Shown one piece after another: positions 3,588 through 23,970 of a stretch of 24,602 nucleotides of DNA (positions are counted from its first letter, which is position 1; each line of letters begins with the position of its first letter). The translations under genes were made by a program, and so were the position numbers. This stretch comes from a virus. Under the pieces are notes generated by a model, which saw only the letters and a list, made by a program, of their open reading frames with translations, did no database searches and had not been told where the DNA came from. The stretch is taken from IMG/VR virus record IMGVR_UViG_3300032092_003314, positions 1-24,602 of that record. One strand, 5' to 3'.

Positions 3588-3589
3588 CG

Positions 3590-4918: not shown

Positions 4919-4933
4919 TAGACAGGAGGATTT

Positions 4934-7248: not shown

Positions 7249-7463
7249 TGTCGTATGACATTCGTGAAGAACAACGAGTGTTCAATTTCTGTGTCTATCG
7301 TCAAGGAGACGAAAAGCCAATGCAGTGCTTTGAAACCGCCGATGAAGCACAGGCATATTGGATGGCTTTGAACGTGGCCGATGTAACTGAGGCGTCAGCT
7401 GAGTCTAAATCAGCTGTTTCGACTTTAGCTACAGAGTTCAAAAAATTACTAAAAAGAGGTTAA
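7248..7463 (+). CDS. Small unknown protein
   Basis: A 71-residue protein starting with GTG. The stop of the protease gene and this start share a base (TAGTG), and AAGGA lies 9 bases upstream, so translation is probably coupled. It looks like a short beta-hairpin followed by helices, with ETADEAQAYWMALNVADVTE in the middle and a basic end (FKKLLKRG). No family, cysteine motif or membrane segment is recognised. Its position between the protease and decoration-like genes suggests a head-related role, but nothing in the sequence shows it. Confidence 0.65.
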   Translation: MSYDIREEQRVFNFCVYRQGDEKPMQCFETADEAQAYWMALNVADVTEASAESKSAVSTLATEFKKLLKRG

Positions 7464-7467
7464 ATAA

Positions 7468-8001
7468 ATGGCTGTAATTGTAACTACTCAAAACAGCACT
7501 CAAGGTGTGGCCGCTACTACCATTATGGAAGGTCGAGCCGTCACCCTGACTGCTTCGGGCGTCAGAAATGACTTGCCCAATGTCACTTACGCGTCTGTGA
7601 ATCAGGAACGCGGCGTATTTATTGCGTTTTTCCCACCTGATAATTTCCCACGCCCCACTTACGAGGATCTGTACACGGTGCCGTCAACGCGCGTTTATGA
7701 TCTTACTGACAGCACTTTGTATGGCGATCCAACGTTCTACAAGAAGCAATATCTTATTCCTCGTAGCATGTGGGCTGAACCGCTTGCATACAGCGGTGAG
7801 TTAGTTGCACTGCATCGAGGTCGAATTGGTATTACCGCCAGTTGTTTCGTCGACGACGCGAACATTCGCGTTCCCGGTGCCCGTGTGGCAGTCGGTGGTT
7901 CTGGTTTGCTGGTCTACACTACTAATAACTTGTACACAATTGCAGTTGTTGAGCGTTTCGCTCCTGACACTGGCGTTTTGTACATTAGCATGGGAGTATA
8001 A
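7468..8001 (+). CDS. Probable capsid decoration or head-stabilisation protein
   Basis: A 177-residue beta-rich protein directly before the major capsid gene, the common place of decoration or stabilisation proteins (lambda gpD position). It is rich in Val, Thr, Gly and Tyr, with no membrane segment. The C-terminal half has a run of likely strands (ITASCFVDDANIRVPGARVA, then YTIAVVERFAPDTGVLYISM). Codons are visibly biased to C-ending forms as in the capsid gene, unlike the minus-strand genes, as expected for an abundant product. Start: ATG with AGAGG upstream. The call is from position and composition; I do not recognise the family with certainty. Confidence 0.6.
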   Translation: MAVIVTTQNSTQGVAATTIMEGRAVTLTASGVRNDLPNVTYASVNQERGVFIAFFPPDNFPRPTYEDLYTVPSTRVYDLTDSTLYGDPTFYKKQYLIPRSMWAEPLAYSGELVALHRGRIGITASCFVDDANIRVPGARVAVGGSGLLVYTTNNLYTIAVVERFAPDTGVLYISMGV

Positions 8002-8004
8002 CGA

Positions 8005-8949
8005 ATGAATAGAGAAGCTTTAATGAAGTCTGTTGCCGAAGTGGCAAAGACGGCCGGTACCTCACAGTCAGGTAAATCGGCATTTGCCGAGTTGCTTATT
8101 CAACTTGTAGAGCCCAATCACTTGTCTCTTGACTTGTTCTCGACTTTTATGCCGAGCCGACAAGCGAGCCTGAACGACGTCGCTATCAAGCGCGTACGTC
8201 GCGGTAAATACTCGGTTCAATCAATGGTACCGGGTACTTCCCATCTTGTGTCACAGCCAACGACTGTGCACGACTACCACAGCTACGTCTTCGATCGTTT
8301 GATTGGTGGTGTGCGTGAAAGTCTTTGGAATGTGCAAAACGGTGCAGTTCAAACTGTAGATCAAATGCGTCAGCAACTGCAATTCGATCTGACCGACAAC
8401 CTTGTTGCCCGTGTGTTTAACTTGTTGACCTCAACTTGGAATTCGACGGACACCCCCAGTCACTACGCCCAAACCGCCGCAATCACTGCTGCCGGTATGG
8501 ACACGATGATTGAAAACGTTATGTACACGGCCGGTACTGTCAAAGCTATTATCGGTACCCGTCGATCGCTTTTGCCTATGTACAAGTTTGCGGGTTTTAA
8601 AGAATACGCCTACGCTGACGGCAACGGTCGTATTGCTTACCCAATAAACGACAAGTTGATGGAATACCTCAACACCAGCCGTGTGGCTGTGTACATGGGT
8701 GTACCCATTATTGAACTGCCGCAAGTATTCCGCAATCAATTGCCTAACCTGCGTGAGCCACTCATCCCCGAAGATAAGATTATCGTGGTGGGTGACAACG
8801 CCGGTGAAATTTTGATGTACGGTGGTACTGAATACTACGAATCAACTGATGCATCAATCCAACCACCCGACTACGTGCTCCATGCGTGGATGCAGTACGG
8901 TATGGTTGTGGACATGCCCGAAAATATCGGTGTAATTAAGATCGTCTAA
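8005..8949 (+). CDS. Major capsid protein
   Basis: A 314-residue protein with the size, position and feel of an HK97-fold major capsid protein. After a short N-terminal helix come an extended region (DVAIKRVRRGKYSVQSMVPG), a long helix (LWNVQNGAVQTVDQMRQQLQ) like the spine helix, and an A-domain-like stretch (VKAIIGTRRSLLPMYKFAGF). Near the C-terminus a conserved-looking segment runs KIIVVGDNAGEILMYGG, then ends with hydrophobic strands (YGMVVDMPENIGVIKIV). GGGAG lies 8 bases before the ATG. Synonymous codon use is strongly C-biased (AAC, TAC, GTC), consistent with the most abundant virion protein. Only 3 bases separate it from the decoration-like gene. Alternatives are few; the confidence is limited because no single diagnostic motif exists for the fold. 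Confidence 0.82.
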   Translation: MNREALMKSVAEVAKTAGTSQSGKSAFAELLIQLVEPNHLSLDLFSTFMPSRQASLNDVAIKRVRRGKYSVQSMVPGTSHLVSQPTTVHDYHSYVFDRLIGGVRESLWNVQNGAVQTVDQMRQQLQFDLTDNLVARVFNLLTSTWNSTDTPSHYAQTAAITAAGMDTMIENVMYTAGTVKAIIGTRRSLLPMYKFAGFKEYAYADGNGRIAYPINDKLMEYLNTSRVAVYMGVPIIELPQVFRNQLPNLREPLIPEDKIIVVGDNAGEILMYGGTEYYESTDASIQPPDYVLHAWMQYGMVVDMPENIGVIKIV

Positions 8950-8960
8950 GGAGCATAACA

Positions 8961-9473
8961 ATGGCAATGAACAACATATATCACATGATGCAGGATAGCG
9001 CTTACAAGCGATACACTAAAGTTCCCATCAACTTGGTTGGCGGCCTTCGTGTTGACCCGACTGACACTCGATTGCAGATTGGATGGATACTACACACGGA
9101 TGAAACTGACTTTGATTTCGCCACCAAGAAACGTATGCGGTTCGTGTATGAAAATGAGGTTATTGAAATTTACTCAGAATCTGAAGATAAGTTATTTCGA
9201 AAATTAAACTCGGGGTTGTTTCGTGCAGGTTTGTTAAAAGAATTTTTCGAAACTGATGAAATAGTTAATTCTCCAAATTTTGTAGATGATTCTGAAATTA
9301 GTCGAATAGTAGAGATTCGGTCACTGACTGAATTTCAGGCAGCGGTCGCCAAGTTTGACGCTCTCGCCACTCTTGAACGAATCAAACAACAACTTATAGA
9401 TCAAGGTAAATCCGTTAAAAAAGTACAGCTTTTAGAAAATAGAATAAAAGAGGTAAGTGATGTCGTGGACTGA
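8961..9473 (+). CDS. Unknown head or neck protein candidate
   Basis: A 170-residue protein directly after the major capsid gene, with GGAG 8 bases before the ATG. The N-terminal 75 residues mix charged and strand-forming stretches (LQIGWILHTDETDFDFATKK). Residues 78-110 are Phe/Glu-rich and helical. The last 50 residues form a long, probably coiled-coil helix (LERIKQQLIDQGKSVKKVQL). Position suggests a head-completion or connector-adaptor protein, as found between capsid and tail genes, but no family is recognised. The end overlaps the next gene by 14 bases when that gene starts at 9460. Confidence 0.65.
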   Translation: MAMNNIYHMMQDSAYKRYTKVPINLVGGLRVDPTDTRLQIGWILHTDETDFDFATKKRMRFVYENEVIEIYSESEDKLFRKLNSGLFRAGLLKEFFETDEIVNSPNFVDDSEISRIVEIRSLTEFQAAVAKFDALATLERIKQQLIDQGKSVKKVQLLENRIKEVSDVVD

Positions 9474-9834
9474 TCAAGCCCTTACAGTACGGGCAGCTTC
9501 TGAGTCTTTTTTAGTTGACACTTGCACCGTTCGTACGTTTAATGGCTACAGTACTATTGACGGTGAATACACAGAATCCTTTACAAATGTAAACAACATT
9601 CCCTGCCGGTTAATAAATCGGCAGGGAAGTGTTGTACAACAACCTGATTCGCAGGAACGTGCTATGCAACTTTTGACGTCAGTAAATACTATTAGAATAC
9701 AACTTCCATATGCAGTGGCTCTTACCGAAAAAGATAAAATTATTTATAACAACGTTACCTACGATGTAACGTATGTACCAGTAAAGCACAGTCTTATGGG
9801 AGCGTTTGTAGTACAAATTGAAAAAAGAAAATGA
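9460..9834 (+). CDS. Head-tail joining / head-closure protein candidate
   Basis: A 124-residue protein from the ATG at 9460. An in-frame GTG one codon earlier is possible, but AGAGG is better placed for the ATG. The middle reads as a compact beta-barrel: CTVRTFNGYSTIDGEYTESF, then IPCRLINRQG, then IRIQLPYAVALTEKDKIIYN and YDVTYVPVKHS. This pattern (a TVxR strand, an IPCR-type strand, a DK-I--N turn and a final V strand) is typical of small head-closure or adaptor proteins of siphoviruses (HK97/SPP1 connector type). It would seal the portal channel and dock the tail. It overlaps the previous gene by 14 bases and the next by 4 (ATGA), indicating coupled translation. Confidence 0.65.
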   Translation: MSWTDQALTVRAASESFLVDTCTVRTFNGYSTIDGEYTESFTNVNNIPCRLINRQGSVVQQPDSQERAMQLLTSVNTIRIQLPYAVALTEKDKIIYNNVTYDVTYVPVKHSLMGAFVVQIEKRK

Positions 9835-10358
9835 ACTCCGCCGAAAAAATAGAAAGATTTATTGCCTATTACGAGCGTCTTCCAGAGAACGTAACGTTAG
9901 TCATAAAAAGACAATTAGAGTCAAGTATCGTTGAGTATTTAAACTCACTAACTCCTGATGAAACGTATCGAGCATTGGCAGACCTTAACGGCGGTGTAGT
10001 TCCGGACACGTTACCTGCGCTACCATCGCACCGGGTTCACGTTTCTGAACGAGTGCCTGACGAGATAGTTGACCGATTAGAGTCGCACATATATACAAAC
10101 GCTATTATGGACTTATATAAACTCGGCCACGAACTCACGTTAGCAATCACTAGTGAAAGAATAAACGTAAATTCAATCAGTAAAATGGTAGATCAGGCGG
10201 TGGCTACTGCCGCGGAAGATAGCAACCCAGTACTAAACGCGAGCTTAAATAGCTTTATTGCTTCTATTTGTACCCCGATCTACGATAAGTTTGCCGCGGA
10301 TATTGTAGTAGATGTTAATAAAGAAGTAGCAGCTCGCGTTAATTCACTATTCAAGTAG
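9831..10358 (+). CDS. Unknown neck/tail-completion candidate
   Basis: A 175-residue, mainly helical protein that starts in an ATGA overlap with the head-closure candidate. It begins with SAEKIERFIAYYERLPENVT and ends in a helix (DVNKEVAARVNSLF). It has no cysteines apart from one near residue 147 and no membrane segment. In the canonical siphovirus order the gene between head closure and tail terminator is a tail-completion protein of the HK97 gp10 type. Position is the only support for that role; the helix-rich look is not a good match to that fold, so function stays open. Confidence 0.62.
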   Translation: MNSAEKIERFIAYYERLPENVTLVIKRQLESSIVEYLNSLTPDETYRALADLNGGVVPDTLPALPSHRVHVSERVPDEIVDRLESHIYTNAIMDLYKLGHELTLAITSERINVNSISKMVDQAVATAAEDSNPVLNASLNSFIASICTPIYDKFAADIVVDVNKEVAARVNSLFK

Positions 10359-10365
10359 GAAACAC

Positions 10366-10800
10366 ATGATAGTAAATGCTCTTTTTCCCAATGTCTGGCG
10401 TATAGTAGCCCGTGCAATCACGCAAATCTCCGGCCAGTATGGAGGGAGGGTTTACTATAATGTCGCACCTCCTGATACTTTATACCCATATCTAATATAC
10501 CAACATGACTCAAGTCTCGGCGGTATTTATGGGATGTTGAACACAACCGCGTGGAAGGGGATTATAACATTTCGATCGTTATCTTCCAGCCTTGCGGGTG
10601 CGTCGGATAGTTTAGGGGATCTGCTTAATAAGCTTGATCGCCCACTTGTGGTGAGCGGGATCCCTAATATTACGATTCCATTTGACGTGCAGTTTCATCC
10701 ATACAAAAGTTATTCGTTCCCTGTGGAACGTTTAAATAACTCGGCAGTCTACACGTCTGCCGTTGGAGTTGAGACATACATCACTCCAAAATTAACGTGA
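10366..10800 (+). CDS. Tail terminator / tail completion protein candidate
   Basis: A 144-residue protein with AGGAA upstream of its ATG. The segment GGRVYYNVAPPDTLYPYLIY (residues 26-45) is the recognisable part: siphovirus tail terminator and completion proteins of the DUF3168/gpU-like type carry a 'yPYvvy'-type strand after a Pro-rich turn. An LNKLDRP stretch and a closing strand pair follow (YTSAVGVETYI). The predicted role is to cap the tail tube at its upper end and connect it to the neck. Its place directly before the tail tube gene fits. Confidence 0.65.
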   Translation: MIVNALFPNVWRIVARAITQISGQYGGRVYYNVAPPDTLYPYLIYQHDSSLGGIYGMLNTTAWKGIITFRSLSSSLAGASDSLGDLLNKLDRPLVVSGIPNITIPFDVQFHPYKSYSFPVERLNNSAVYTSAVGVETYITPKLT

Positions 10801-10822
10801 TACTAATTAGGAGAAAATACAA

Positions 10823-11254
10823 ATGTCACTTGTAAGAGGAATCGAGGGTTTTTTAAAGATCTACAACTCCACCACGTCCAGTTACGATAACGTTGACTTT
10901 GTTTCGCAATGGCAGGCTTCACTTCGTACTAACCAAGTTGATGCGGGTCCTTTCTTGAACGACGGCGGTAAAATGTACACGTTCACTACGACCAAGCGTA
11001 TTAATGGTAGCTTCCAAATCACGCTGCCACTTGACAATCGTGCAACTCACACGCGCTTGATCAACGTCTCAAACTCGGGGGAGTATCTTGCAATTAAGCT
11101 GGTAGCTAAAGCAGGTTACACGATGACCGTTCCTTCGGCCATCCTGACCGGTTATCAAATTACTAACGCCGCAAACAATGAAGTCACTATGAGTTTTGAC
11201 TTCATGGATAACGGTGGGTTCTCAGTGGCACCCGCAATTAACGGGGATTACTAA
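10823..11254 (+). CDS. Major tail tube protein
   Basis: A 143-residue protein following the tail terminator candidate, with AGGAG upstream of the ATG. It shows the layout of a tail tube subunit: an N-terminal GxxGFLKIY strand, a central loop with DGGKMYTFTTTKRINGSFQI, and a C-terminal ILTGYQITNAANNEVTMSFD strand pair typical of polymerising tube proteins. Codon use shifts to C-ending codons as in the capsid gene, suggesting high expression. A strong intrinsic terminator directly follows, which would keep this abundant product high relative to the downstream tape measure. No sheath gene accompanies it, so the tail is probably non-contractile. Confidence 0.78.
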   Translation: MSLVRGIEGFLKIYNSTTSSYDNVDFVSQWQASLRTNQVDAGPFLNDGGKMYTFTTTKRINGSFQITLPLDNRATHTRLINVSNSGEYLAIKLVAKAGYTMTVPSAILTGYQITNAANNEVTMSFDFMDNGGFSVAPAINGDY

Positions 11255-11260
11255 ATAGTA

Positions 11261-11304
11261 AACAGCCTCCTCCAAATAAAAACTGGAGGGGGCTGTTTTT
11301 TTTT
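11261..11304 (+). terminator. Intrinsic terminator after the tail tube gene
   Basis: AACAGCCTCCTCCA (11261-11274) pairs with TGGAGGGGGCTGTT (11284-11297) as a 14-bp stem with a single G-U, around a 9-base A-rich loop. A run of T continues to 11304. It lies 6 bases after the tail tube stop codon. With no new obvious promoter before 11324, read-through is the likely source of downstream transcripts, so it should act as an attenuator inside the late operon. Confidence 0.93.
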
Positions 11305-11323
11305 ATATTAAAAGGAGTATTAC

Positions 11324-11725
11324 ATGATTGATTATGCATTTGGTTCGGGAGAGTACTACGAAAGCGTAGATGATTTATTACGAGATGACTCGATTCTCGA
11401 GGTCGATATTACTATAAAAGGTTTATCGAAGCGAGTGCGTATTCGCGCACTGTCGTTCTTGCAGATGGAAAAGATTAATCAACAGTCGTCAAAAAACGGC
11501 GAGATTGATAACATTGAATTTACGGTTAACACTTTGGCAGAGGGCCTCGTTCGCCCTAAGATGAACCCAGCACAGGCGCGTAAGCTTTTAGAGGCTAATG
11601 GGGAGGTCGTACGTGAAGTCGCAGAAAATATTTGGACGCTTGGAAAAATTAGCAAAGACATGTTCGACAAGTACATCCAGACACTACAAAAAGACGCCGA
11701 CTTATCGACCGACAAGTCGGAATAA
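11324..11725 (+). CDS. Tail assembly chaperone, upstream frame (gpG-like)
   Basis: A 133-residue protein between the tail tube and tape measure genes, where siphoviruses encode the tail assembly chaperone. It has AAAGGAG upstream of the ATG. The protein starts with a flexible acidic part, then VDITIKGLSKRVRIRALSFLQMEKINQ, a beta pair and helix often seen in chaperones of this class, then helices ending in DMFDKYIQTLQKDADLSTDK. Its role would be to coat the tape measure protein and recruit tail tube subunits. It overlaps an open frame shifted by +1 that continues to 11987, consistent with a programmed frameshift to a longer gpGT-type product. Confidence 0.72.
   Translation: MIDYAFGSGEYYESVDDLLRDDSILEVDITIKGLSKRVRIRALSFLQMEKINQQSSKNGEIDNIEFTVNTLAEGLVRPKMNPAQARKLLEANGEVVREVAENIWTLGKISKDMFDKYIQTLQKDADLSTDKSE
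11687..11725 (+). other. Candidate programmed frameshift zone in the chaperone pair
   Basis: The downstream frame is offset +1 (equivalently -2) from the upstream frame, not the -1 used by lambda G/T. It is open across the end of the upstream gene, up to the TAA at 11723-11725. A run CAAAAAG at 11687-11693 lies in this zone: frame-0 codons are CAA AAA, and a Lys-tRNA on AAA could re-pair either one base forward on AAG or two back on AAA, both leading into the downstream frame. No classical -1 heptamer in the correct phase was found. This is inference from frame geometry. Confidence 0.45.
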
Positions 11726-11777
11726 CGGTATACACTTATTTCTTCGTACTGCCGAATCGACTCGAGAGGAACTGGGC

Positions 11778-11987
11778 ATGTGGGTAGATCATTTTCTTCT
11801 ACCTACTCAGTTCAATGCGTTACACGCTAAGAGTCTATCAGCGCTTACCTACGCACATTTGGCAGTCGTTATTGTAGCAAGACTGAGGTCACTCGAAGGT
11901 AGTGTGAGACGAAAGGAGAAACAGGCTATTGAGAAAGAAAGAATTGAATTACGGAAAGAAGCCGATCTATTAGAACAATTTTTATAG
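11778..11987 (+). CDS. Tail assembly chaperone, downstream frame (gpT-like)
   Basis: From the ATG at 11778 this frame gives 69 residues; the frame itself is open from before 11598, so a frameshift fusion would carry extra residues from about 11690. The content is FLLPTQFNALHAKSLSALTY, a helix, then a strongly charged coiled-coil end (EKQAIEKERIELRKEADLLE). This is typical of the second half of a tail chaperone pair. The ATG has GAGAGGAA about 7 bases upstream, so independent initiation is a real alternative to frameshifting. The stop lies 10 bases before the tape measure ATG. Confidence 0.6.
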   Translation: MWVDHFLLPTQFNALHAKSLSALTYAHLAVVIVARLRSLEGSVRRKEKQAIEKERIELRKEADLLEQFL

Positions 11988-11997
11988 GAGGTAAATA

Positions 11998-14900
11998 ATG
12001 GCCGATGAGATACAGAAAGCAACAGAAGATTTAAAAGTACTGTTGCAGGCTATAGAGGCTGTAAACGCAACTACAGCGGGAGCAGCCCAAATAAAACCTG
12101 TCATGCAGGAGATAGGCGGTAAAGAGGGCATGGCTGCGTATGCTATGGGAATAGACACTCAAAATGCTGGTTTTTATGTGGATCAATTAAACGAAATGAT
12201 TGAAAAACATGAAAAAGTGAATGAGCTTATTCGAGAACAAATTCAATTGACACAATCTGCAACAAAAGCATCTTCAAATTTTAACGGAGATTCTGAGCCA
12301 ACAAGTGGCGGGGGTGCTTCATTAAGAAGTACCGTTGCAAGTCGTCCTCCCAATGTAACCTCAGTAGACAGGTTTGTTCGATATGTTCAACGAAACCCGA
12401 CCGCACTTGATATTCCCGCAGATACTTACGACGAAGAGACAATTAAAAAATTACTAAGACTTCAACAAGGAGTCATGGAGTATTCGCAGGGAAGAACTGA
12501 TAGAAGTCAACAGGCGCAAATGGGCCTTGACTTTAGAAGTCTATTCCCTATTCCCACAGATAATCGTCAAGATTCGCAAAATTTTGGTTTAATGAGTGGA
12601 GGAAGTTTACCATTAAGACGCAGTGTCGGAAATCGTCCGCGCGGGGTATCTGACGTAGACTCATTTGTTAAATATGTCTTAGAAAATCCGCACTCACTCG
12701 ATGTTCCTGAAGATACTTATGACGAAGAAACAACTAAAAAATTATTAAGACTTCAACGGGGGGTTGCAGAATATTCACAAGGAAGATCGAACAGACGCGA
12801 ACAAGCGCAAATGGGCCGTGATTTTAGAAGTGTATTTCCTGTTCCCTCAACTGCTCTACCGCAGGACACACGCAGCTCTATCTCAACCATGGTTAGTGCT
12901 GCTCTTAATCACATAGGTATGGGAGATAGACCGGCTGCAAGAAATTTAGATACGGCAAATGATCAGTACTTGTTAGATGTTCTAGACAATGTTCTGGACC
13001 GTATTACTGTGCTGGATCCTGACACCGGCGTTCCTCAACAAACAGCTGTACCTAAAGACTTAATTCGTTCGCAGATTAACAGGGCTGTAAGCGGTATAAA
13101 TAAAGTTGTCGAAAACGCGCTCAAACGTAGATCTTACGACCCGTCGGAAACGGATCCCGTGGATTCAGATGCTCCTGACTGGTTGCAAGCACTCAATGCA
13201 GATTTTGAAGATTCTGGATTAGGAGTAAACGCGACCGCTGTTAATCTTGGAATGAACGTTTACAAAACGCCGGGTGCTACGGGTAATTTTAGACAAGCAC
13301 CGCGTGGGGCTGACGGCGGTACAGTTTACAGCAAAAAGCAAAAATTTGGTAAGTCGAGTAACGACGAGGCTCGAAGTTCGTTTCGAAAATCAATTCGCGG
13401 TGACTGGAAAGCTCGAGAAGAGACCGGAGACACAGACGAATACTCAGCGGGTAGTCAAGTGTCCGGCTATGAGGCTACGTCAGTATTCCCAATATCAAGC
13501 AGTCAAAAAATATCTGAGGACATTAAAGCTCAGCGAAGGCAAGTAAATGAGGAGATTGTTGCCGGTGACATGGAGCCAGTTGAAATTGGCGGCAAAATAG
13601 TCCAAGTACCTCGTTCTTTAGCTAAGAAAAAAGATGTACTTGTTCGTGCAGTACGCGCAATGAGCAAGGATACTACTCTAGTTGGCCGACGTGCACAGGA
13701 GGGCGGCACCAAGGAAGAAACCGGGATTTATGGGAGCGGTTCCTTAGAACAAGAAACAGTGAATTTACATGCCGCTGCAATGTTGGAGCACTATCTGAGC
13801 AATCCTATGGAAAGGATAGAATCCGGTTTTGACTCCGATTTTATGCAGCGGGTGGTTATTCAAGAAACAGAGGATACCCCAAACGCTGAAACTCAAAATG
13901 CTGGAAGACTTTACGCGCAACGTTCTATAGAGTCTCTGCAAGAAAAGGCAAACTCTGCAAATAAAAAGCGTCAAACAAGCACCAACCCGTCTGACCGTGA
14001 TAAGCAAGAACGAATAATGACCGATGCGATACATCAAAAAGAATTTATAGAAGACATTCTTTTCGATGAAATCCCAGAAGTCCCAGCTGGCGCATCGGAA
14101 GAGGAAGCCGAAGCGCATGTTAAGTATTACCAAAATAGGCTAGCTGAAAACCGCGGTGAAATGTTAAAAGTTTCGGCACGCGGTCTAAGTGCAAAACAAA
14201 AAGCACGAAGAGAATCTGTAAAAAGGAAAATGACTGACGACTTAATAAGTCAGGGTTATAGCAAAGAAGAAGTACTAGCGATAGGAAAACGTTATAAGGC
14301 TGGCAACACACTTAGTGACAAAGAGCGAGAGTTATTTAAACCAATAATTGAATTTGACAGAGATGAGCCCAGAACCACAGAAATTAAAGGTAAGTATGAG
14401 CCATTCACTGTAGATCAAGCACTGGCCTACATATACGGTAGTGACCTTACTCAAGTACCTGATTTTAAAGATGCTTCTATAGGAATACGAAGGTATGCCA
14501 CTGAAGTGAGCGAAAGGCTTGCCGCACAAGGCGAAGTTGAATCACCTCCTTTACCAAGAGTTAAAAAAGACACTACGCCAGCAAGGACAAAAGATGCGGT
14601 GCTGGAACTTGGCAGAACCACCGCTTTAGAAGAAGCGGGTACAGGAACGGGTACCGGAGTCATGCGCCGTAGTCTAAGATTCGGCGAGGAGTACGGCCCT
14701 AACGAAAGGTATGCGGAGCGTCTAATACAACTATCGAACAGCAAAGACGAGGTTGAACGTAGAGAAGCTTTAGAGACTATTGCACTGCACCGAGCAGTCG
14801 CCGAGGCAAGAGGCTATAATCCGGATGATTATGCACAGGGCGGTATAGTTGGGGAGAATGAGGGATTTACCGGGGACAACGTAGCAAGAGCCAACCAGTT

Positions 14901-17900
14901 TTTAAATTATGTTGCGTTGAAAAGACGAGCTGACAATGGAGACGAAAGTGCTCAAGAAGATATAATTAAAATTGATAAGCAACGTAAGCGTGTTCAAGAA
15001 CTTGATGCGGGTACTCGGGATATTCCTGATTTTCAATATCAACCAATGCTAGGCGAAGGGGCTTTTAGCCGAGTAAGCAAAACCGGCCGAAGCCTGTTTC
15101 AAAATACACCTTATTCGGGTCAGATTAAAAAAGCGCTAATGCAGGATAAGTACGGGGAAGATGTGTACGAGTCAGGGGTAGACCTGATGGGGTTAGCCGA
15201 CGCAGTAGAGGCTGCAGAGATTCCTGATGATATTTCGTTAAGCGACGAAGCGGCTCGGAGAGAGGCAATTATTGCCCGTAACCCTGATTTACGAATGCAA
15301 ATTGCAAAAGCTAATCGAGACATAAATCGCATAGGGCGGGAGGATCAAGACTCGATTCTACTCCCTCATGATTTAAGTGATGTCACTCCGGGAGGCGAAG
15401 CAGATCAAATAGACGACATACTAATGCAATTAATTGAGCAAAGGGAATATGTCGACTCAGAAGGCGTAGTAGCAGTACCAGAAACTAGACGTTCCTATGA
15501 AGCAGAAAATATGGTTGAGGCGCAGTTAAAACAGATGGCTGAGGGTGCGTCAAAGCGTTTGACTAATACTAAGGCCGCAGTATCTGAATCAGAGTTAAGC
15601 GACGAGGAAAGAACATTATTAGCACGTGCATTCGTAATTGATCTTCAAAAGCCTGTTGATTTGTCTTCTACACAAACGCAACCAAAAACTGCTGCACCGC
15701 CAAGAGAGACTTTAACTTCGAACGAAACACGGCGAGTATTTGAGATAAGAAAACGGCTAGTAAAGAATGCTACTAGAAAGATGGCGGTGGACCCGGAGTA
15801 TGCTACGGTAGGTGGCAGAGGGTTACCTCAACTCTTGGAGATTGCGTCACTAATGGCAGATGATCGGACTCAAAATGCATCAGCATACAAGCTAACTAAT
15901 TCGTTGGAAAATTTAGAGCCTGAAGACAGACAGTTTCTTAATCAGTATGATCTTAGTAAGGAAAAACAACGCAGGGAAGCTGTCGAAAAGGGGTCTGCAC
16001 GGGTTAGGCGGGTACTGGGATTTATTAATTTTGACGATAGAGCGATTGAGAATCTTTTATCTTATAATCCAGTAGTCGGTCTTGGCGAGGAGAACACGCG
16101 GCGAGGAAACGACGATTCAACAAGAGTAGAACGAGAAGCTAAGACAGGTTTACGTCAGATAGCTAGTGATGCCGCCTCAGTAAGAGAGGCCTCTCAACTA
16201 AATCTATCATTTCGACCTGAACCAACAAAAACGGAAAGAATTGAACGTACCATTGCAAAAATCTCTAAGTTAAACTTAGACGAGGAAGAGGATTTGCTGG
16301 AGGCCGAGCGCATAGCTGGGATTAAGCCTAAAGATCGTAGACGTACTACAAGGGCAAGAAAGCAAGCAGTGCAGCAGTTTGTAGACAAGCAGAATGAAAT
16401 ACTTATCGCAGATCTTACACCAGAAGTAGCACTTGAGGATGCAGCCGAAAAGCGACGTAATCTTTTACAATCTGACTATCAAGAACCTATTGTAGAGCCG
16501 GTAGCACTTCCTGAACCAGAACCGGCACTAGTTGCACCAGAACCTAAAGCAGAAAAACCAAAAAGAACAAGAACAAAACGGGAGAAACCAGTTAAAGAAG
16601 TTACTCCTGAAACTACAGCTTTAGCTAGAGTTCCTAGTACGGCATTAGCTACAATTCCTGTTCCTCCAACTCCAAGAGAACCACTTATTACTCCATCGTA
16701 TTCGGAAACTACAGCATTGGCTAGAGTTCCTAGTACGGCATTAGCTAGAGTATTGACTGCCGCCCTAGCTACAGTTCCGCCCTCTACAGCATTAGCTACA
16801 GTCCCAAGCTCTACAGCATTGGCTAGAGTAGTAACTACAGCGCTGGCTACGGTTCCAGCTTCTACGGCATTAGCTACAGTTCCGAGTTCCACAGCGTTAG
16901 CTAAAGTTATAACTACAGCGTTAGCTACAGTTCCTAGAGTTGCAACTCCCCCACCCACAACTGTCACAGCTCCTACAACGCCACTTCTTACCGGGCCTAC
17001 AACTACAGCGTTAGCTACAGTTCCTAAAAGTGCGACTCCACCTCCTACAACAACTGTAGCTCCTACGACTCCGCTTCTTACTGGTCCGACAACTACAGCA
17101 TTAGCCACAGTGCCTAAAACTCCAGCTCCTGCAACACCTGCAACCACAGCTCCACCGGCAACAACTACAGCCTTAGCTGTGGTTCCTAAGACTCCGGCCC
17201 CTTCAACTGCGGCAACACCTGCAACTCCGACTGTACCTCCTGCAACTACAGCATTAGCAGTTGTTCCTAAAACTCCGACTCCTGCAACTCCTGCTCCGGT
17301 TGCTCCTGCTCCTAAAGCTCCAATTATAACTCCACCTCCTGCAGCTGCTACGGCTTCGACAGTACCACTTCTTACTGGCCCTACAGCACCTACAACTCCA
17401 AGAGCTCCAAGAGCTCCAAGAGCTCCTAAACCTACTACACCTATTGCACCTACTGCACCAGCACCTCTAATTACCTTTAGTGGAGCTCCGACTGCTCCAA
17501 TTGTTTTACCGACTGTTCCGCCTGTAACTGTAACTCCAAGAGCTCCAAGAGCTCCAAGAGCTCCTAAACCAGCACCGGCACCGGTTGTTCCTTTTAGTGG
17601 AGCTCCGACTGCTCCATTACCAACTATCACTGTTCCACCTGTAGCTCCTGCAACTGGACCTGCTGGGACTTCACCGTCCACGGCTCCGTCTGGTGGTGGT
17701 ATTACTGCACCCGGTGCAACTATTACAGTTACCGGCGGTACAGTTACTATTACCGGATCAACAGTCACTGGTGGAACCGGTGGTGCTGGTGGTGCGGGCG
17801 GAAGCGGAACGGGTGGCACCGGCGGCACTGGTGGTGGCGGTGGCGGTGGCGGTGGATTCCGCAGAAGTAACCTAACTGACATGATTTTTGGTCAGATGGA

Positions 17901-20900
17901 CGTACTAAGTGATCGAACTAAAGATGTTATACGTGAGGCTCCAGATGAACCAGCTCGAATAGCGCTTGTACAGGCAGCACGGGATCGATATGCAAAGTTA
18001 CAACAAAAAGCATTGCAAACTCAAATAGACTACGGATCGCCGAGCATGATACTTAATCCTACGGTGCCCGGGCTTGTAGCAGGTTTAGATACTAGCAAAA
18101 ATCCGTTGCAAGACTTAAATACTATGACGGAGGCTGTACTTCAGGATCAAATAGCTAGTGCTGTAGAAAGAGATCGAATTGAAAATGATCCAACTTTATC
18201 AGCCGCGGACAGAAAACTTGAACTCGCCGCCTTAGACGCATCCGATCGAGAACTTAATGATTTTGCGGCCGTACTAAAAAAAGTTACAGAAGATCTCAAT
18301 CGATTTCAACAAGCGGTCCGAGTACCCAATACGGCATTCGGTAATACTTCTGGTAGGAGTGGTGGTGGTGGTGGCGGTCCAACAATTCGTACAGCTTCAG
18401 GTAAAGTATTGTCAGAGGCCGACGTACTGGCATTATCTGATTTAGAAAGTAAACGAAATTTATACGCCTCCTTTCAAGGAAACCTGCCAAACTTAGGTTC
18501 TCGTTTTGATTCACAATTAGATTTGACACGGAGAACTCGTAGATTTGCTGATGCAACACTTTCACAACTACCCGCCGTTGATTTAACAGGCGTTGATTTT
18601 ATGGGCGACGTCGCAAAAGAGACTGCAGCAAATGCAGCAGCTGCTGAACTGCAAGATGCAATAGCACAGATAAAACCGAACACACTTGAAACTAGGCCTA
18701 TTGAGGAACTTGCAGTTGATCTGTCGAGAGTTAACGAAGCGGCAATAAAACTTAACGACGTTATAGAAGGTGCTGGTAATGTAGATGCTGCACAAAGTGG
18801 CATACAAAACGTAGTAACAGCAACTGGATTTGCAGAAAGACAGCAAGCAAGATCCGGTGCCGAGATTGATAAACAATCGGCATCAAATGCAAGAAACTTG
18901 GAAGAGAATATGCAGGCAATTGTTAGTCAGCCCGGATTGATTCGCCGTCTAACCGGTGGTGTACAAAGAGAGGGCGCCGAGCATGTGCGTGAATATCTCA
19001 AGGGAATTTTTGGTGACTCTAAGGAAGGACGCAAGGCAACTGACACTATGTTTTACAAAGATCAGATGGTTGCGTACGATGATCAAGGACGACGCCGTAA
19101 CATTGTAGGCGCCAGTACAAAAGAATTGCAAAACCTACAGGCGCGAGTAAAGGCAGAAAGTGGCATGGACGTATCAATGGATGATCTCCAGCGTACTCAA
19201 CGAGCAATGGCCCGTGTTCAACAAGCTCGCAATCAATCGCCGTTCAATGATATACTTTCTTACAGCATGTCCAAAATGCGGGATCTTGACTCACTTGGCC
19301 AAACGGTAATGGGTGCTATGAATGCACCGCAAACAATTGCATCTACAATTAGTCAAATTGGCGACCCTCAACTTCGTACGGATCGCATAATGACCACAGC
19401 CAGAGCGTTGTCATTAAGTCCAGAAACGTACACTAAAGCGCTCGCCGCCGCTACCCAACAACAATCAAGATTTGGTGGTACACTGTCAAAAAATTTGGAG
19501 GACATGACTTCATTTATTCCTATATCGAATACGTATGGAGTGGATGTCGGCAAGTCAGTTCAAGTGGCAAGAAAACTCGCCGCGTTTGACCCAGCACAAG
19601 GAATGCAGGGTGCAAGTATTGCACTTAAAGAATTTTTATCGGGTAACGTGTCTTCATTGAGCCGTCGTTTCGAAATTAATCGTAGCGATTTGTCAAAGAT
19701 AAATACGGGTGATGCGAATGAAATGTTAGATTCACTCGACACTCTTCTGGGTAAAATGGGTGTTACCGACAAACTTATCGACGATCAAGCAAACTCGTTA
19801 GCGACTAAGTATGACCGTATGACAGGTCGTCTTGAAACAATGCAAGTGAGCTTCAGTGCGTTTGCTGTTAGTGCTATGACACCAGTACTCGAGCCAATAC
19901 TCGGAGACAAGTCTTTTCTTGCAAAAGGCGCATTAGATCAAAATTTGCAGAAAGTTGTTACGGAGCGGTTAAAGTCTTATGGGGACTCGGTACTAAGTGA
20001 TCCAGAGACCGGATTAAAAACAGTTGATGTTTTTTCCTCAAAATTTGCTGAGCAACTAGATCCAATATTAGCTAAAGCAAATGACTCAACTTCCACGGCC
20101 GCGCTAGATTTTACCGGTATAACTGGGAATGTGTCTAACGTTGAGTTGTACAGACGTCTGGGTAATATGAGCGCGGACGACCGACGACGTATTCAGCAAA
20201 GTGCTCAATCGAGTGTGCTGATGGGTATGAATCAAGAACCCGCAATACTTAAAGCTATGCGCGATGTAGGCGGAGACTTTTTTAGCGGCGAGGAATTTCA
20301 AGCACAAAGAAGACCGTTAGGATTCTACGGACCTGCTATGAGCCCGATGGAGCGAAGGGACTTAAGCGAACGAGCCGGAGAGGCACTGAAATTTGGACAA
20401 CGGGGCCAGCAAGTGCAGCTTCTTCGCAAACTCGATGCGGACACGTACGACGTTAGGTTACCTAGTGGTAAAATTGACCGAGTCCGTCTTGCGGGTGTGG
20501 ATGCTCCCGAGAAAAATACGGATGAAGGTAAACAAGCCTCTGAGTTTGCTGGCAGAGTAATCGGTACAGATCTTACTAATCCAGAAAGTCCAAAAAAGTT
20601 TGTTACTCTCTATTCAAAAGGAAACCGAGACGAAAACGATAGACTTGTGGGTAGTCTAAACGTTAATGGTAATGATCTTGCTACTACGCTTATTGCAAGC
20701 GGTAATGCAGCAGCGTTCAATTTTGAGGGCAGTTACGGTCAAGATGTTATGGCACCGCTGAGCGCACTTGAAAGAAATGCCGCAAACATTGGAATCGGCC
20801 CAGTAAACGCGCGAGCAGCCGGGTTAGGTTTAGGTGCTAACTCAGAAATCTCAGAGGCAGTTAAGACTAAGTACTTTTACGATAAGTATGTAAGTTTGGC

Positions 20901-23900
20901 GGCTCTATACGGGGGTGTCGGTGGTGCCACCGCGGGTACTCTTGTCGGCGGTTATAACGCTCTTGCAGCACTCGGTTCAGCAGGTGGTTTAGCCGCAGGT
21001 GGCGGTGCAGCGACCGGGATAGCTGCGGCACCAATACTTCCAATAGCGGGGGCCGTGGCTACTCTTGTTGCTGGCGGTTATCTTGGTGTATCTGCGTACA
21101 ATGATAGCAAAGATACTAGTGCTCCAAAAATGCGTGAATTGAACAGATTGCAAAGTGAAGAAGATTTACTAAAAGCGGCGGGAAACATTGGTGATCAATT
21201 ATACCCACAAGCGGCCAAACAAACTCAAGAGGATGAAGCTAGAATAAAAGATCTAGTCGCTAATGGCAAGAGTGACTCCGCAAATGCATTTATGCTTTAT
21301 CGATCTTTTTTTGCATCTGACCTACAAAAACCACGTGAGGAATTTGTAACTCAATTCGTTGACTCAGGGAAAGAATTATCTAAATACTACAATGGTCTGG
21401 CCGAAGAACAGAAGGAAGTTTACGGATTAGTCGTTACGGATCCCGCCACAAAACAACGCACTAGTGTATTTAGAGCAATGCAAATGTTCCAAACACTGCA
21501 AAAACGAGATGAAACCAAAACCGACCCAACTGCGAAGAAAATTCTTGAGGAAAACTTTGATGCGTATACCGACCTTAATCGCCGGATTGACATTACAACA
21601 AAGACGTCAAAGTTAATCGAAACTGCACAAGCATACGGAATTCAAACTACTTATAAGGGATCATACGAGGGTCAAGGGCCGCCTAGAGCAAGTCGTTACG
21701 TTGGCCCCGTGACTAAGGTAATGGATCGTGAAACGTTCTTTAATCTAAACGAGGATCAGCAGATTGATGTAGCAAAACAACTGAACGATGCAATTAATAC
21801 TCCAAGTTGGAAACGATTTGCAAAAGAATATGCAGACCAAGCAATGGAAAAACAAGCAGCAATGTCACAACAGCGGTTTACAACGTATGTCGACAATACT
21901 GCATTGAACTCGTTGGCGGGTATGAATCCGGGTCAATTAAGTTCCTCTGTTTTTGGTTTTCGATCGACTGGTACTGGGAGAGCACTTGAGGATCCGTTAG
22001 ACGGTGATGGAAACCCTATAAGTCCTTTGGTCGCACCCTCAATTCGTGCGTTGACCCGTACTAAATTTGCAGAAGGTGTAAACTACGATGAATCCGGTAA
22101 GGAAAACTTAAAGAATGCACAAGCAGAAGCAGTCAAATCGCTTGAGCAACAGATAGTAGCGTATAGAGAGCAGGAAGAACTAACAAGGCCGTTTAATTTA
22201 GCACTTAAAAGTACGTACAGCAATTTTATACAAACACTGCAAAAATCGGGTACTCAGTACGGCAATATTATGACGTATTTATCTCAAGGCAACCCACGCG
22301 GATTTCTTGATGTCAGTCAGCAAATGAGTGGTTTTAACGTGCAATCAATTATGCAAAACCGAATTACTACACAAAATAGCGCAGTAATGGGTATTGGTAG
22401 CGTTGCTGCAGGAACATCGGGGCCAGTTCCAACAGGCAGATCATTTAACTATGGGTACACAACTGGTCCTCAGGGTACAATCCAGTATGCTCGAGACTTT
22501 ATGAGGGCACCTGAGCGATCGTTGTTTAACCCGGCCGCAATTGAATCAGTTATAATGCAGGGAGTTCAGGCCAATACAGAAATCGTACAACGCAATCTTG
22601 ACTTTGGCCGCAAACTGCGAGATGCTGAGATAGCTAACAGACGCGCTCTTGAAGATATTAATCGAAATGGTATGCGTAGTTTGGAGGATATTCACCGCAA
22701 CTATACAAGAAATATGATACAATTAGCACAGCAATCCGAAACGTCAAAACGTTTAGGAACAGCGCAGTTTTACACCGGTGCAGTAGCAGCAAACATCGAT
22801 CCAAATGAAAAAGCAAGAATCACCGCTTCGCGCGAACAAGGTCAACAAAAAGCGTCGCACATTGAGCAGGCAGATGTAGGCACGTATCTTAAATCAAGTG
22901 ACGGTATGCAAGATACAGAATTACAGAAAGCTTATGCAGAATACCAAGCGACCCCCTTTACAAATGCTACCGTAAAAGAAGAGTCTTGGAAAAAAGTAAT
23001 GGATATAGTGCAGGTTCGAAGAAGTCAGACCAAGGCCAGAATGGAGAACGCCACTGAAGTTCCGGAGCGATCTGCTGCAGAAGCGCAATTCGGTTTACTT
23101 TCTGATAATTATGATCGTGGTCAACAATATCGAAAATACGTAGATGATATGTATAACCAACAGATGGAATTTGCAGGAAGAAGAAAGCAGTTGGGGATCA
23201 ATCGCGTTGACTTAGAACGTGAGGGGGGACGTCTTCGAGAAAAAACTCCCGAGTTAGCAATGCAGCTAGGTAAGGCACGGACTCCTGAAGAAATTAGGGC
23301 TGCTAGAAATGCAATAGAGGACAACAATGTTGCTATTGAAAAGAATAGTGAAGCACTAGCGCAAAATGCTCGTGAACTCGAGTCAGTAACTATCACTGCC
23401 CCACTCTGGGCTGATAATTGGCGTGAGGCTGGGAAACAAATTTTAGAAAGTTCTACAAGCACTATTTCAGGTTTGTTAAACAACTTAGAAGATTTTAATA
23501 TAAATTATGCGCGGCAATTAGAAGATGCATACCTAGGTTTTAAAAATGCAAAGAAAGATATGATCAAGCAATTTACAGATGCCGCAATTGAAATTTCTCA
23601 AGCGGTTCCTGCTGAGTTTGCCGGAGCATTGAGTGCTATCACGTCCTACCAACGGATGTCACTTAAAGCCGAGTCATACTATAACGCGGGTAAAGTTGAG
23701 TCCGCTCAAACAGTGCAGAGGCTGGCAAATGTTCAATTAGCTAGTTCGCTGTATCCCAAAGGCAGTGACGAATATAACTCAATGGTAAGTCAACTGGATT
23801 CAAACGTGACAAGCATGACGGCGCAAGGAATGCAACAGAACGATCTTACTATGGGGCCATCTGGCTTAGGTGCGTATGGTGAAAAAGACTCTGACGGTAA

Positions 23901-23970
23901 ATTCTCTTTGCGGGTTGTAATGAAAGACAAAGCCAGAGATCCTTTAAGGGGCAAAGACGACGGCCCCTAA
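11998..23970 (+). CDS. Giant tape measure protein (3,990 residues) with an internal SNase-like domain
   Basis: Position after the chaperone pair, extreme length and a Gly/Ala-rich hydrophobic segment mark this as the tape measure protein, which sets tail length and enters the envelope at DNA ejection. Layout: helical start (1-100); imperfect tandem duplication (105-283); charged, probably disordered region to about 1500; linker of Thr-Ala-Leu-Ala, Pro and Gly repeats (about 1500-1953); helical core with a tape-measure-like stretch around 2230-2660 (FDPAQGMQGASIALKEFLSG); SNase-like domain (about 2804-2930) with Asp2815, Arg2830, Asp2835, Glu2838, Arg2882; hydrophobic segment (about 2966-3035); helical C-terminal third. 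By the rule of about 0.15 nm per residue of helix, a full-length tape would be near 600 nm, but linker and globular parts should shorten this. GGAGG lies 6 bases before the ATG. No frameshift interrupts it. Confidence 0.92.
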   Translation: MADEIQKATEDLKVLLQAIEAVNATTAGAAQIKPVMQEIGGKEGMAAYAMGIDTQNAGFYVDQLNEMIEKHEKVNELIREQIQLTQSATKASSNFNGDSEPTSGGGASLRSTVASRPPNVTSVDRFVRYVQRNPTALDIPADTYDEETIKKLLRLQQGVMEYSQGRTDRSQQAQMGLDFRSLFPIPTDNRQDSQNFGLMSGGSLPLRRSVGNRPRGVSDVDSFVKYVLENPHSLDVPEDTYDEETTKKLLRLQRGVAEYSQGRSNRREQAQMGRDFRSVFPVPSTALPQDTRSSISTMVSAALNHIGMGDRPAARNLDTANDQYLLDVLDNVLDRITVLDPDTGVPQQTAVPKDLIRSQINRAVSGINKVVENALKRRSYDPSETDPVDSDAPDWLQALNADFEDSGLGVNATAVNLGMNVYKTPGATGNFRQAPRGADGGTVYSKKQKFGKSSNDEARSSFRKSIRGDWKAREETGDTDEYSAGSQVSGYEATSVFPISSSQKISEDIKAQRRQVNEEIVAGDMEPVEIGGKIVQVPRSLAKKKDVLVRAVRAMSKDTTLVGRRAQEGGTKEETGIYGSGSLEQETVNLHAAAMLEHYLSNPMERIESGFDSDFMQRVVIQETEDTPNAETQNAGRLYAQRSIESLQEKANSANKKRQTSTNPSDRDKQERIMTDAIHQKEFIEDILFDEIPEVPAGASEEEAEAHVKYYQNRLAENRGEMLKVSARGLSAKQKARRESVKRKMTDDLISQGYSKEEVLAIGKRYKAGNTLSDKERELFKPIIEFDRDEPRTTEIKGKYEPFTVDQALAYIYGSDLTQVPDFKDASIGIRRYATEVSERLAAQGEVESPPLPRVKKDTTPARTKDAVLELGRTTALEEAGTGTGTGVMRRSLRFGEEYGPNERYAERLIQLSNSKDEVERREALETIALHRAVAEARGYNPDDYAQGGIVGENEGFTGDNVARANQFLNYVALKRRADNGDESAQEDIIKIDKQRKRVQELDAGTRDIPDFQYQPMLGEGAFSRVSKTGRSLFQNTPYSGQIKKALMQDKYGEDVYESGVDLMGLADAVEAAEIPDDISLSDEAARREAIIARNPDLRMQIAKANRDINRIGREDQDSILLPHDLSDVTPGGEADQIDDILMQLIEQREYVDSEGVVAVPETRRSYEAENMVEAQLKQMAEGASKRLTNTKAAVSESELSDEERTLLARAFVIDLQKPVDLSSTQTQPKTAAPPRETLTSNETRRVFEIRKRLVKNATRKMAVDPEYATVGGRGLPQLLEIASLMADDRTQNASAYKLTNSLENLEPEDRQFLNQYDLSKEKQRREAVEKGSARVRRVLGFINFDDRAIENLLSYNPVVGLGEENTRRGNDDSTRVEREAKTGLRQIASDAASVREASQLNLSFRPEPTKTERIERTIAKISKLNLDEEEDLLEAERIAGIKPKDRRRTTRARKQAVQQFVDKQNEILIADLTPEVALEDAAEKRRNLLQSDYQEPIVEPVALPEPEPALVAPEPKAEKPKRTRTKREKPVKEVTPETTALARVPSTALATIPVPPTPREPLITPSYSETTALARVPSTALARVLTAALATVPPSTALATVPSSTALARVVTTALATVPASTALATVPSSTALAKVITTALATVPRVATPPPTTVTAPTTPLLTGPTTTALATVPKSATPPPTTTVAPTTPLLTGPTTTALATVPKTPAPATPATTAPPATTTALAVVPKTPAPSTAATPATPTVPPATTALAVVPKTPTPATPAPVAPAPKAPIITPPPAAATASTVPLLTGPTAPTTPRAPRAPRAPKPTTPIAPTAPAPLITFSGAPTAPIVLPTVPPVTVTPRAPRAPRAPKPAPAPVVPFSGAPTAPLPTITVPPVAPATGPAGTSPSTAPSGGGITAPGATITVTGGTVTITGSTVTGGTGGAGGAGGSGTGGTGGTGGGGGGGGGFRRSNLTDMIFGQMDVLSDRTKDVIREAPDEPARIALVQAARDRYAKLQQKALQTQIDYGSPSMILNPTVPGLVAGLDTSKNPLQDLNTMTEAVLQDQIASAVERDRIENDPTLSAADRKLELAALDASDRELNDFAAVLKKVTEDLNRFQQAVRVPNTAFGNTSGRSGGGGGGPTIRTASGKVLSEADVLALSDLESKRNLYASFQGNLPNLGSRFDSQLDLTRRTRRFADATLSQLPAVDLTGVDFMGDVAKETAANAAAAELQDAIAQIKPNTLETRPIEELAVDLSRVNEAAIKLNDVIEGAGNVDAAQSGIQNVVTATGFAERQQARSGAEIDKQSASNARNLEENMQAIVSQPGLIRRLTGGVQREGAEHVREYLKGIFGDSKEGRKATDTMFYKDQMVAYDDQGRRRNIVGASTKELQNLQARVKAESGMDVSMDDLQRTQRAMARVQQARNQSPFNDILSYSMSKMRDLDSLGQTVMGAMNAPQTIASTISQIGDPQLRTDRIMTTARALSLSPETYTKALAAATQQQSRFGGTLSKNLEDMTSFIPISNTYGVDVGKSVQVARKLAAFDPAQGMQGASIALKEFLSGNVSSLSRRFEINRSDLSKINTGDANEMLDSLDTLLGKMGVTDKLIDDQANSLATKYDRMTGRLETMQVSFSAFAVSAMTPVLEPILGDKSFLAKGALDQNLQKVVTERLKSYGDSVLSDPETGLKTVDVFSSKFAEQLDPILAKANDSTSTAALDFTGITGNVSNVELYRRLGNMSADDRRRIQQSAQSSVLMGMNQEPAILKAMRDVGGDFFSGEEFQAQRRPLGFYGPAMSPMERRDLSERAGEALKFGQRGQQVQLLRKLDADTYDVRLPSGKIDRVRLAGVDAPEKNTDEGKQASEFAGRVIGTDLTNPESPKKFVTLYSKGNRDENDRLVGSLNVNGNDLATTLIASGNAAAFNFEGSYGQDVMAPLSALERNAANIGIGPVNARAAGLGLGANSEISEAVKTKYFYDKYVSLAALYGGVGGATAGTLVGGYNALAALGSAGGLAAGGGAATGIAAAPILPIAGAVATLVAGGYLGVSAYNDSKDTSAPKMRELNRLQSEEDLLKAAGNIGDQLYPQAAKQTQEDEARIKDLVANGKSDSANAFMLYRSFFASDLQKPREEFVTQFVDSGKELSKYYNGLAEEQKEVYGLVVTDPATKQRTSVFRAMQMFQTLQKRDETKTDPTAKKILEENFDAYTDLNRRIDITTKTSKLIETAQAYGIQTTYKGSYEGQGPPRASRYVGPVTKVMDRETFFNLNEDQQIDVAKQLNDAINTPSWKRFAKEYADQAMEKQAAMSQQRFTTYVDNTALNSLAGMNPGQLSSSVFGFRSTGTGRALEDPLDGDGNPISPLVAPSIRALTRTKFAEGVNYDESGKENLKNAQAEAVKSLEQQIVAYREQEELTRPFNLALKSTYSNFIQTLQKSGTQYGNIMTYLSQGNPRGFLDVSQQMSGFNVQSIMQNRITTQNSAVMGIGSVAAGTSGPVPTGRSFNYGYTTGPQGTIQYARDFMRAPERSLFNPAAIESVIMQGVQANTEIVQRNLDFGRKLRDAEIANRRALEDINRNGMRSLEDIHRNYTRNMIQLAQQSETSKRLGTAQFYTGAVAANIDPNEKARITASREQGQQKASHIEQADVGTYLKSSDGMQDTELQKAYAEYQATPFTNATVKEESWKKVMDIVQVRRSQTKARMENATEVPERSAAEAQFGLLSDNYDRGQQYRKYVDDMYNQQMEFAGRRKQLGINRVDLEREGGRLREKTPELAMQLGKARTPEEIRAARNAIEDNNVAIEKNSEALAQNARELESVTITAPLWADNWREAGKQILESSTSTISGLLNNLEDFNINYARQLEDAYLGFKNAKKDMIKQFTDAAIEISQAVPAEFAGALSAITSYQRMSLKAESYYNAGKVESAQTVQRLANVQLASSLYPKGSDEYNSMVSQLDSNVTSMTAQGMQQNDLTMGPSGLGAYGEKDSDGKFSLRVVMKDKARDPLRGKDDGP
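12310..12846 (+). repeat. Imperfect tandem duplication within the tape measure N-terminus
   Basis: Residues 105-186 and 201-283 (about 12310-12555 and 12598-12846) are two copies of one module: a GG-S-LR start, then VDxFVxYV, DTYDEET, KKLLRLQ, GVxEYSQGR, QAQMG and DFRSxFPxP. Over the 64 best-aligned residues I count 46 identities. DNA divergence between copies shows the duplication is not recent. Confidence 0.9.
16612..17271 (+). repeat. Thr-Ala-Leu-Ala repeats in the tape measure linker
   Basis: Fifteen copies of a heptad-to-nonamer S/T-T-A-L-A-x-V-P (one starting AALA) occur over residues 1539-1758, first nearly back to back, then spaced by Pro/Thr spacers. Inside lies a 90-base tandem unit encoding 30 residues, at 16939-17028 and 17029-17118, both containing TPLLTGPTTTALATVPK. 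The DNA copies differ mostly at third positions, so the protein repeat seems to be under selection rather than freshly slipped. Confidence 0.9.
17395..17571 (+). repeat. Duplicated Pro-Arg-Ala-Pro block
   Basis: The peptide TPRAPRAPRAPKP is encoded at 17395-17433 and again at 17533-17571, and the first 38 bases are identical. Each copy is followed by FSGAPTAP (17476-17499 and 17593-17616), so this is a duplicated segment with variable spacers. The RAP triplets resemble the basic Ala/Pro repeats of DNA-binding tails. Confidence 0.85.
17770..17856 (+). repeat. Glycine-rich hinge ending the tape measure linker
   Basis: Residues from about 1925 to 1953 are almost all Gly with Thr, Ala and Ser, ending in nine consecutive Gly codons before Phe1954. 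It forms a flexible border between the repetitive linker and the helical core. A second, shorter Gly run (GRSGGGGGG) lies near 18351-18377. Confidence 0.85.
20404..20800 (+). other. Staphylococcal-nuclease-like domain inside the tape measure
   Basis: Tape measure residues about 2804-2930 follow the thermonuclease (SNase, OB-fold) pattern. DADT (2813-2816) stands for DGDT; VRLAGVDAPE (2829-2838) for the R-L-L-L-V-D-T-P-E block; DENDRLVGSL (2878-2887) for the D-K-Y-G-R block; then a NGNDLATTLIASGNA strand-helix and an ALERNAANIGIG end. Residues equivalent to SNase Asp21, Arg35, Asp40, Glu43 and Arg87 are all present (Asp2815, Arg2830, Asp2835, Glu2838, Arg2882), so calcium-dependent nuclease activity is plausible. 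Confidence 0.85.
20893..21100 (+). other. Glycine/alanine-rich hydrophobic segment of the tape measure
   Basis: Residues about 2966-3035 are uncharged and rich in Gly, Ala, Leu and Val (for example GAVATLVAGGYLGVSAY), long enough for two or three membrane passes. Tape measure proteins often carry such segments, thought to insert into the host membrane and form the DNA channel. Confidence 0.7.

Follow-up and report, generated by a model that had tools for sequence, protein, structure and literature searches.

Muralytic tape measure proteins (TMPs) carry lytic transglycosylase or peptidase domains, and the phage DNA analysed here raises the question as to whether a tape measure may likewise house an enzyme domain that is directed not at peptidoglycan but at nucleic acid. 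The stretch under study (hereafter the window; 24,602 bases) is the complete IMG/VR virus record IMGVR_UViG_3300032092_003314 and is probably a genome fragment, whose genes between positions 4517 and 24450 can be read as a siphovirus structural module (Table 1).

Homology and position both identify the ORF at 11998-23970 as a phage tail TMP. Residues 2516-2652, within its conserved core, match the annotated tape measures of phages D6E (E 1e-11) and Abouo (E 5e-7), and annotated TMPs of Brevibacillus phages are among the matches to this core. The gene order is that expected of a TMP, the ORF lying after tube and chaperone genes and before tail-tip genes and containing a hydrophobic segment, with the functions of the neighbours remaining putative. 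The tail-tip genes can be followed in a close relative, represented by a single contig (loci L022 and L003) with 98.4% identity to the window over 12 kb, in which Dit-like, Tal-like and fibre-like genes, so named by position and appearance, succeed the TMP gene.

Table 1. Positions of the features discussed in the text; coordinates refer to the window unless a relative's locus is named.
Feature	Position	Strand	Remarks
HK97-like major capsid protein	8005-8949		
Neck or tail-completion-position protein	9831..10358	+	175 aa; window copy without SNase
Tube-like gene	starts 10823		upstream of the chaperone-like pair
Tail assembly chaperone-like pair	11324..11987	+	overlapping ORFs 11324-11725 and 11598-11987; assigned by synteny, from position and overlap ahead of the TMP
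TMP	11998..23970	+	3990 aa; single uninterrupted frame; largest ORF of the window
Conserved TMP core (aa 2455-2740)	19360..20217	+	motif LAAFDPAQGM...FEINRS; 51-94% identity across 15 viral loci
Exchangeable cassette (aa 2781 to about 3260)	20338..21777	+	SNase, hydrophobic segment and about 220 aa; defined against L022
Staphylococcal-nuclease-like (SNase) domain (aa 2803-2934 of the TMP)	20404..20799	+	PF00565; by model and profile
D2813-A-D2815-T2816	20434..20445	+	equivalent to D19, D21 and T22 of S. aureus nuclease; D21 a metal ligand; D, D and T invariant
R2830	20485..20487	+	equivalent to R35; invariant in 12 divergent copies
D2835-A-P-E2838	20500..20511	+	D40 a metal ligand, E43 the general base; D, A and E invariant
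R2882	20641..20643	+	equivalent to R87; invariant in 12 divergent copies
Hydrophobic segments (aa 2965-2983 and 2998-3034)	20890..21099	+	putative membrane-inserting part; Kyte-Doolittle scan
DEDDh domains in cousin TMPs	L024:6152-6901, L023:6830-7579, L025:727-1422, L118:4831-5526, L116:5293-5880, L117:3058-3600, L109:180-647		upstream of SNase
SNase insertions in neck proteins	L016:1146-2072, L007:3686-4612, L009:5267-6193, L013:11788-12687		

A number of further features were observed in the window and its relatives. On the minus strand, a likely terminase large subunit (3-740) is broken by an intein N-terminal region straight after the Walker-A-like motif GGRAIGK, and a ribonucleotide reductase is encoded at 1422-3587 (phrog_367, E 7e-170). 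The TMP itself contains long Ala/Thr/Pro/Gly-rich repeats with TTALATVP-type units at about aa 1535-1970 (window 16600-17900), the copy numbers of which appear to differ in L022. Furthermore, the L022 TMP (ORF 707-14704) possesses an extra segment at about aa 1925-2020 (GVGDAHYGNPF...) that is missing from the window TMP; this segment weakly matches phrog_464 (E 0.0017) and, we presume, resembles a DUF4326-type domain. The TMP open frame of contig L025 (around 15951-16106, minus strand) reaches 6477 aa, which would predict an extremely long tail, while the closest relative has a glycosyltransferase-like gene amid those for its tail and replication (L123:4862-6058).

The original prediction placed a thermonuclease-like domain at 20404-20800 of the window. 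The corresponding in-frame segment (20404-20799) scores 33.1 bits against the Pfam SNase family PF00565 (cut-off 21; E 8.3e-8), and the family is also detected when the whole 3990-aa TMP is used (E 3.3e-7). The equivalent domains of the relatives score 21-44 bits, with those of L025 falling under the cut-off at 16.7-18.9. The PHROG endonuclease family phrog_452 also matches the domain, as does phrog_8809 (2317 positions), a match which extends past the SNase in L115; phrog_8809 may represent another SNase-bearing large protein family. When the single window domain was compared to PDB sequences using phmmer, no match was obtained; the family profile matched PDB thermonucleases with an E value of 3.5e-15, aligning D21, R35, D40, E43 and R87 of S. 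aureus nuclease with the five catalytic residues of the TMP.

An AlphaFold2 model of the domain, for which the window sequence was aligned with those of eight relatives, has a core pLDDT of about 82-93 and a poorly predicted C-terminal tail. Foldseek and VIA-align rank S. aureus nuclease first for this model, with a Z-score of about 15 and an rmsd of 1.9-2.0 Å over about 109 residues. Hence, both the profile search and the structural superposition that had been proposed as checks of the prediction bear it out. Considering fold and alignment together, the five catalytic residues would converge in the folded domain, and residues 2803-2934 of the TMP are, by profile and predicted fold, a true SNase (PF00565) domain. 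Within its family, the domain is an unremarkable SNase, and BFVD contains a few further large viral proteins in which SNase folds are seen.

The residues originally named as catalytic, Asp2815, Arg2830, Asp2835, Glu2838 and Arg2882, are all present. In an alignment of 12 divergent SNase copies, two of them from the neck protein, eight of the 85 ungapped columns are invariant (D2813, D2815, T2816, R2830, D2835, A2836, E2838 and R2882) in sequences that are otherwise about 25-30% identical. All five catalytic residues are among these eight, which excludes chance retention on this family alignment (P = 1.7e-6, a rough value that treats columns as exchangeable). Two further positions of S. aureus nuclease, Y85 and T41, are not kept, being replaced by N2880 and A2836, respectively. 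Between the window and L022, the domain exhibits a dN/dS of about 0.25 at a dS of about 1 and is under purifying selection; several codons of the D2835-A-P-E2838 motif differ by synonymous change alone. Because the invariant positions essentially represent the SNase active site, this site appears to be under selection for catalysis, and we are highly confident in assigning the domain as catalytically intact on the basis of its sequence.

This leads to the question as to how widely such a domain is distributed. Relatives were recruited using the SNase region, the capsid protein and the TMP core as queries, and the SNase was found about 330-420 aa past the TMP core in all 15 related loci with an intact downstream region; these include overlapping re-fetches and near-identical strains, and correspond to about ten distinct versions. 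A recent insertion unique to the phage of the window is thereby ruled out, as is a separate gene or frameshift artefact, the frame being single and open in the window and the ORFs large in all relatives. Three distant TMPs, those of L120 (core 40% identical), D6E and Abouo, lack the SNase, while of 80 SNase matches in viral contigs, 79 correspond to ORFs of 113-187 aa that stand alone and only one to a TMP. On these data, an SNase common to tape measures at large can be rejected. Since the domain is present throughout the clade, absent from distant TMPs and elsewhere stand-alone, it is, as judged from these loci, fixed in a single clade whose tape measures are long. Among isolate phages, no DNA match was found, and the protein matches were stand-alone endonucleases or weak chance matches. 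Scans of bacterial genomes gave no relative, and no host could therefore be assigned.

The predicted position of the domain just before a membrane segment also holds, as two hydrophobic stretches lie directly downstream of it. Indeed, such a segment follows the SNase within about 10-70 residues in each of the nine TMPs scanned. Comparison of the window with L022 indicates that both elements belong to a larger unit: the adjoining TMP is mostly 80-100% identical, whereas residues 2781 to about 3260 retain only 37-75% amino-acid identity. At codon 2780, nucleotide identity drops from 96% to 52-72% and dS rises sharply from 0.15 to 1-1.6, to recover past aa 3260. Fast amino-acid change alone would not suffice to explain this jump in synonymous divergence, which points to exchange of the SNase-plus-membrane-segment cassette by recombination. 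The same pair of TMPs also varies at aa 3861-3990 and in the N-terminal 1500 aa.

A second SNase copy was encountered outside the TMP. Homologues of the window's neck-position protein carry a mid-protein SNase insertion in L007, L009, L013 and L016, while those of L003, L006, L010, L011, L012 and L014, as well as the window protein itself, are without it. Because L016 and L019 overlap by 6121 bases at 99.7% identity, one phage lineage has an SNase in both its TMP and its neck protein. Maximum-likelihood analysis splits the TMP and neck SNases from 23 stand-alone viral SNases (support 96/90) and nests the neck SNases among the TMP copies (support 85/71), their exact placement being uncertain owing to long branches and to flanking columns present only in TMPs. 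This topology is consistent with an origin of the neck SNase by intragenomic transfer.

Several cousin TMPs carry, in addition, a DnaQ-like DEDDh domain upstream of the core (L023, L024, L025 and L118, and more distantly L116, L117 and L109), which the window TMP does not possess. The motifs FDLET, GHNxxxFDL and HxAxxD are kept, the alignment of L109 starting beyond the first of these. The PHROG exonuclease family phrog_192 matches four of the cousin TMPs (E 1.8e-13 to 8e-11), while a Pfam search of these proteins gave no DEDDh match. A model of the L117 domain (pLDDT 86) resembles DNA polymerase III epsilon (Z 13.3) and exonuclease I (Z 13.2). With its motifs and its predicted RNase H-like fold, the domain is assigned as a DEDDh exonuclease.

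No earlier report of a nuclease domain in a tape measure was found in the open-access literature, where one may have been missed, and an SNase in a tape measure is apparently undescribed so far. The TMP domain shares with the S. aureus nucleases Nuc and Nuc2 the OB-fold SNase core and the equivalents of D21, R35, D40, E43 and R87, and in Nuc2, too, the enzyme is anchored next to a membrane segment (PMC3994088). However, these are small secreted or anchored enzymes rather than part of a 3990-aa TMP, and the activity of the TMP domain, which does not keep Y85 and T41, is a predicted one. The sole comparable SNase fusion that we found in the literature is BtI1, a phage-like element of B. thuringiensis israelensis, in which an SNase is fused to a phage tail structural protein, at the N-terminus of the baseplate hub (PMC2147016). 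That hub is a gp27-like protein of a myovirus-type element and a single case, in contrast to the TMP of a long-tailed clade represented by 15 loci; this comparison, which also involves 0305phi8-36, rests on the description in PMC2147016. Its authors could not explain the fusion and suspected intragenomic transfer from stand-alone genes (PMC2147016).

Other systems show partial parallels. The DNase gp4 of T4 is likewise a nuclease built into a tailed-phage virion (PMC7824862), but it has a restriction-endonuclease-like fold and a role in head completion and packaging. Polyvalent proteins are also large and injected, combine several domains and include nucleases that have been proposed to attack the DNA of hosts or rivals (PMC5512222), but they are not tape measures; the comparison was made by text, and PMC5512222 names neither SNase nor tape measure. 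In the case of SNIPE (PMC13190303), a nuclease is stationed next to the tape measure on the membrane while injection proceeds; SNIPE, however, is a host-encoded GIY-YIG enzyme that cuts phage DNA, whereas here the phage itself would carry the nuclease.

Concerning function, we lean towards the reading that the domain is an active, probably Ca2+-dependent nuclease that is carried in the tail, released at the envelope upon ejection and attacks nucleic acid there. In this scheme, the TMP would carry a folded, catalytically competent SNase as cargo beside its membrane-inserting segment; the domain would ride inside the tail tube, be expelled with the tape once the tail opens, and be held at the envelope through the hydrophobic segment next to it. 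A Ca2+-rich compartment may then allow it to cut host or competing DNA or RNA near the entry site, with the phage's own incoming genome presumably shielded within the channel, and the low Ca2+ of the cytoplasm could protect progeny genomes from freshly synthesised tape measures. In the cousin phages, the DnaQ-type exonuclease of the same polypeptide could digest the ends made by the SNase. In published work (PMC13190303), labelling during injection places the lambda TMP at a protein complex of the inner membrane, and tape measures come into contact there with SNIPE, the host nuclease, from the cytoplasmic side. Calcium is required by S. aureus Nuc and Nuc2 (PMC3994088), and only this analogy suggests that the TMP domain uses Ca2+. 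Several points run counter to the scheme: a nuclease sitting at the pore puts the genome of the phage itself at risk, and no immunity factor was found; Y85 and T41 are replaced; RNA or extracellular DNA could be the substrate instead; and the paralogue in the neck protein of relatives would be more in keeping with a task performed on phage DNA.

Such a task, in end trimming, head-tail joining or genome release at ejection in the manner of T4 gp4, is one alternative. It is favoured by the lineage with a second SNase in the neck-position protein, and the non-specific DNase activity of gp4 has been reported to be needed for packaging (PMC7824862). However, about 1050 aa separate the TMP domain from the C-terminus, and it sits on the side of the presumed tail tip, a long way from the packaged DNA; moreover, the neck copy is not essential, being missing from the window, L003 and several other relatives; we regard a role on the phage's own DNA as unlikely. 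Barrier-degrading enzymes are frequent in tape measures, and the nuclease might accordingly clear extracellular or envelope nucleic acid (biofilm DNA, vesicles or periplasmic DNA) so that the tail tip or channel reaches the membrane, a proposal to which we give little weight. SNase-type enzymes are typically secreted and Ca2+-dependent (PMC3994088), but a domain enclosed in the tube prior to ejection would have the outside beyond its reach.

The original prediction had also allowed for a structural OB fold, that is, a non-catalytic domain serving folding, spacing or binding. OB folds are common binding modules, but invariance limited to the active-site set, across copies so divergent, strongly disfavours this option and makes it highly improbable. 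Equally slight is the chance that the SNase is a selfish or mobile cassette, one that furthers its own transfer from phage to phage and plays no part in infection. The sharp recombination edge at codon 2780, adjoining the domain start, and the second SNase copy elsewhere in one lineage would fit such an element; against this, SNases are, to our knowledge, neither homing endonucleases nor sequence-specific, and the domain occupies a single fixed site in all copies of the TMP clade.

Returning to release of an active nuclease at entry, a broader reading may be offered, tentatively and with somewhat less than even confidence: the clade as a whole may use its TMP as a nuclease delivery vehicle, with the SNase beside the membrane segment and, in several members, a DnaQ-type exonuclease, destroying host or competitor nucleic acid in the envelope while its own DNA passes via a protected channel. 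If the domain is active, the enzyme repertoire of tape measures would widen from cell-wall cutting to nucleic-acid cutting, and a phage nuclease deployed at the entry pore would be the mirror image of the host defence SNIPE. Given that the SNase-membrane cassette is exchangeable, adaptation to hosts or rivals may take place in this part of the tape. Finally, the finding raises a self-versus-other question, namely how a genome escapes a nuclease at its own entry site, for which calcium compartments may provide a simple hypothesis.
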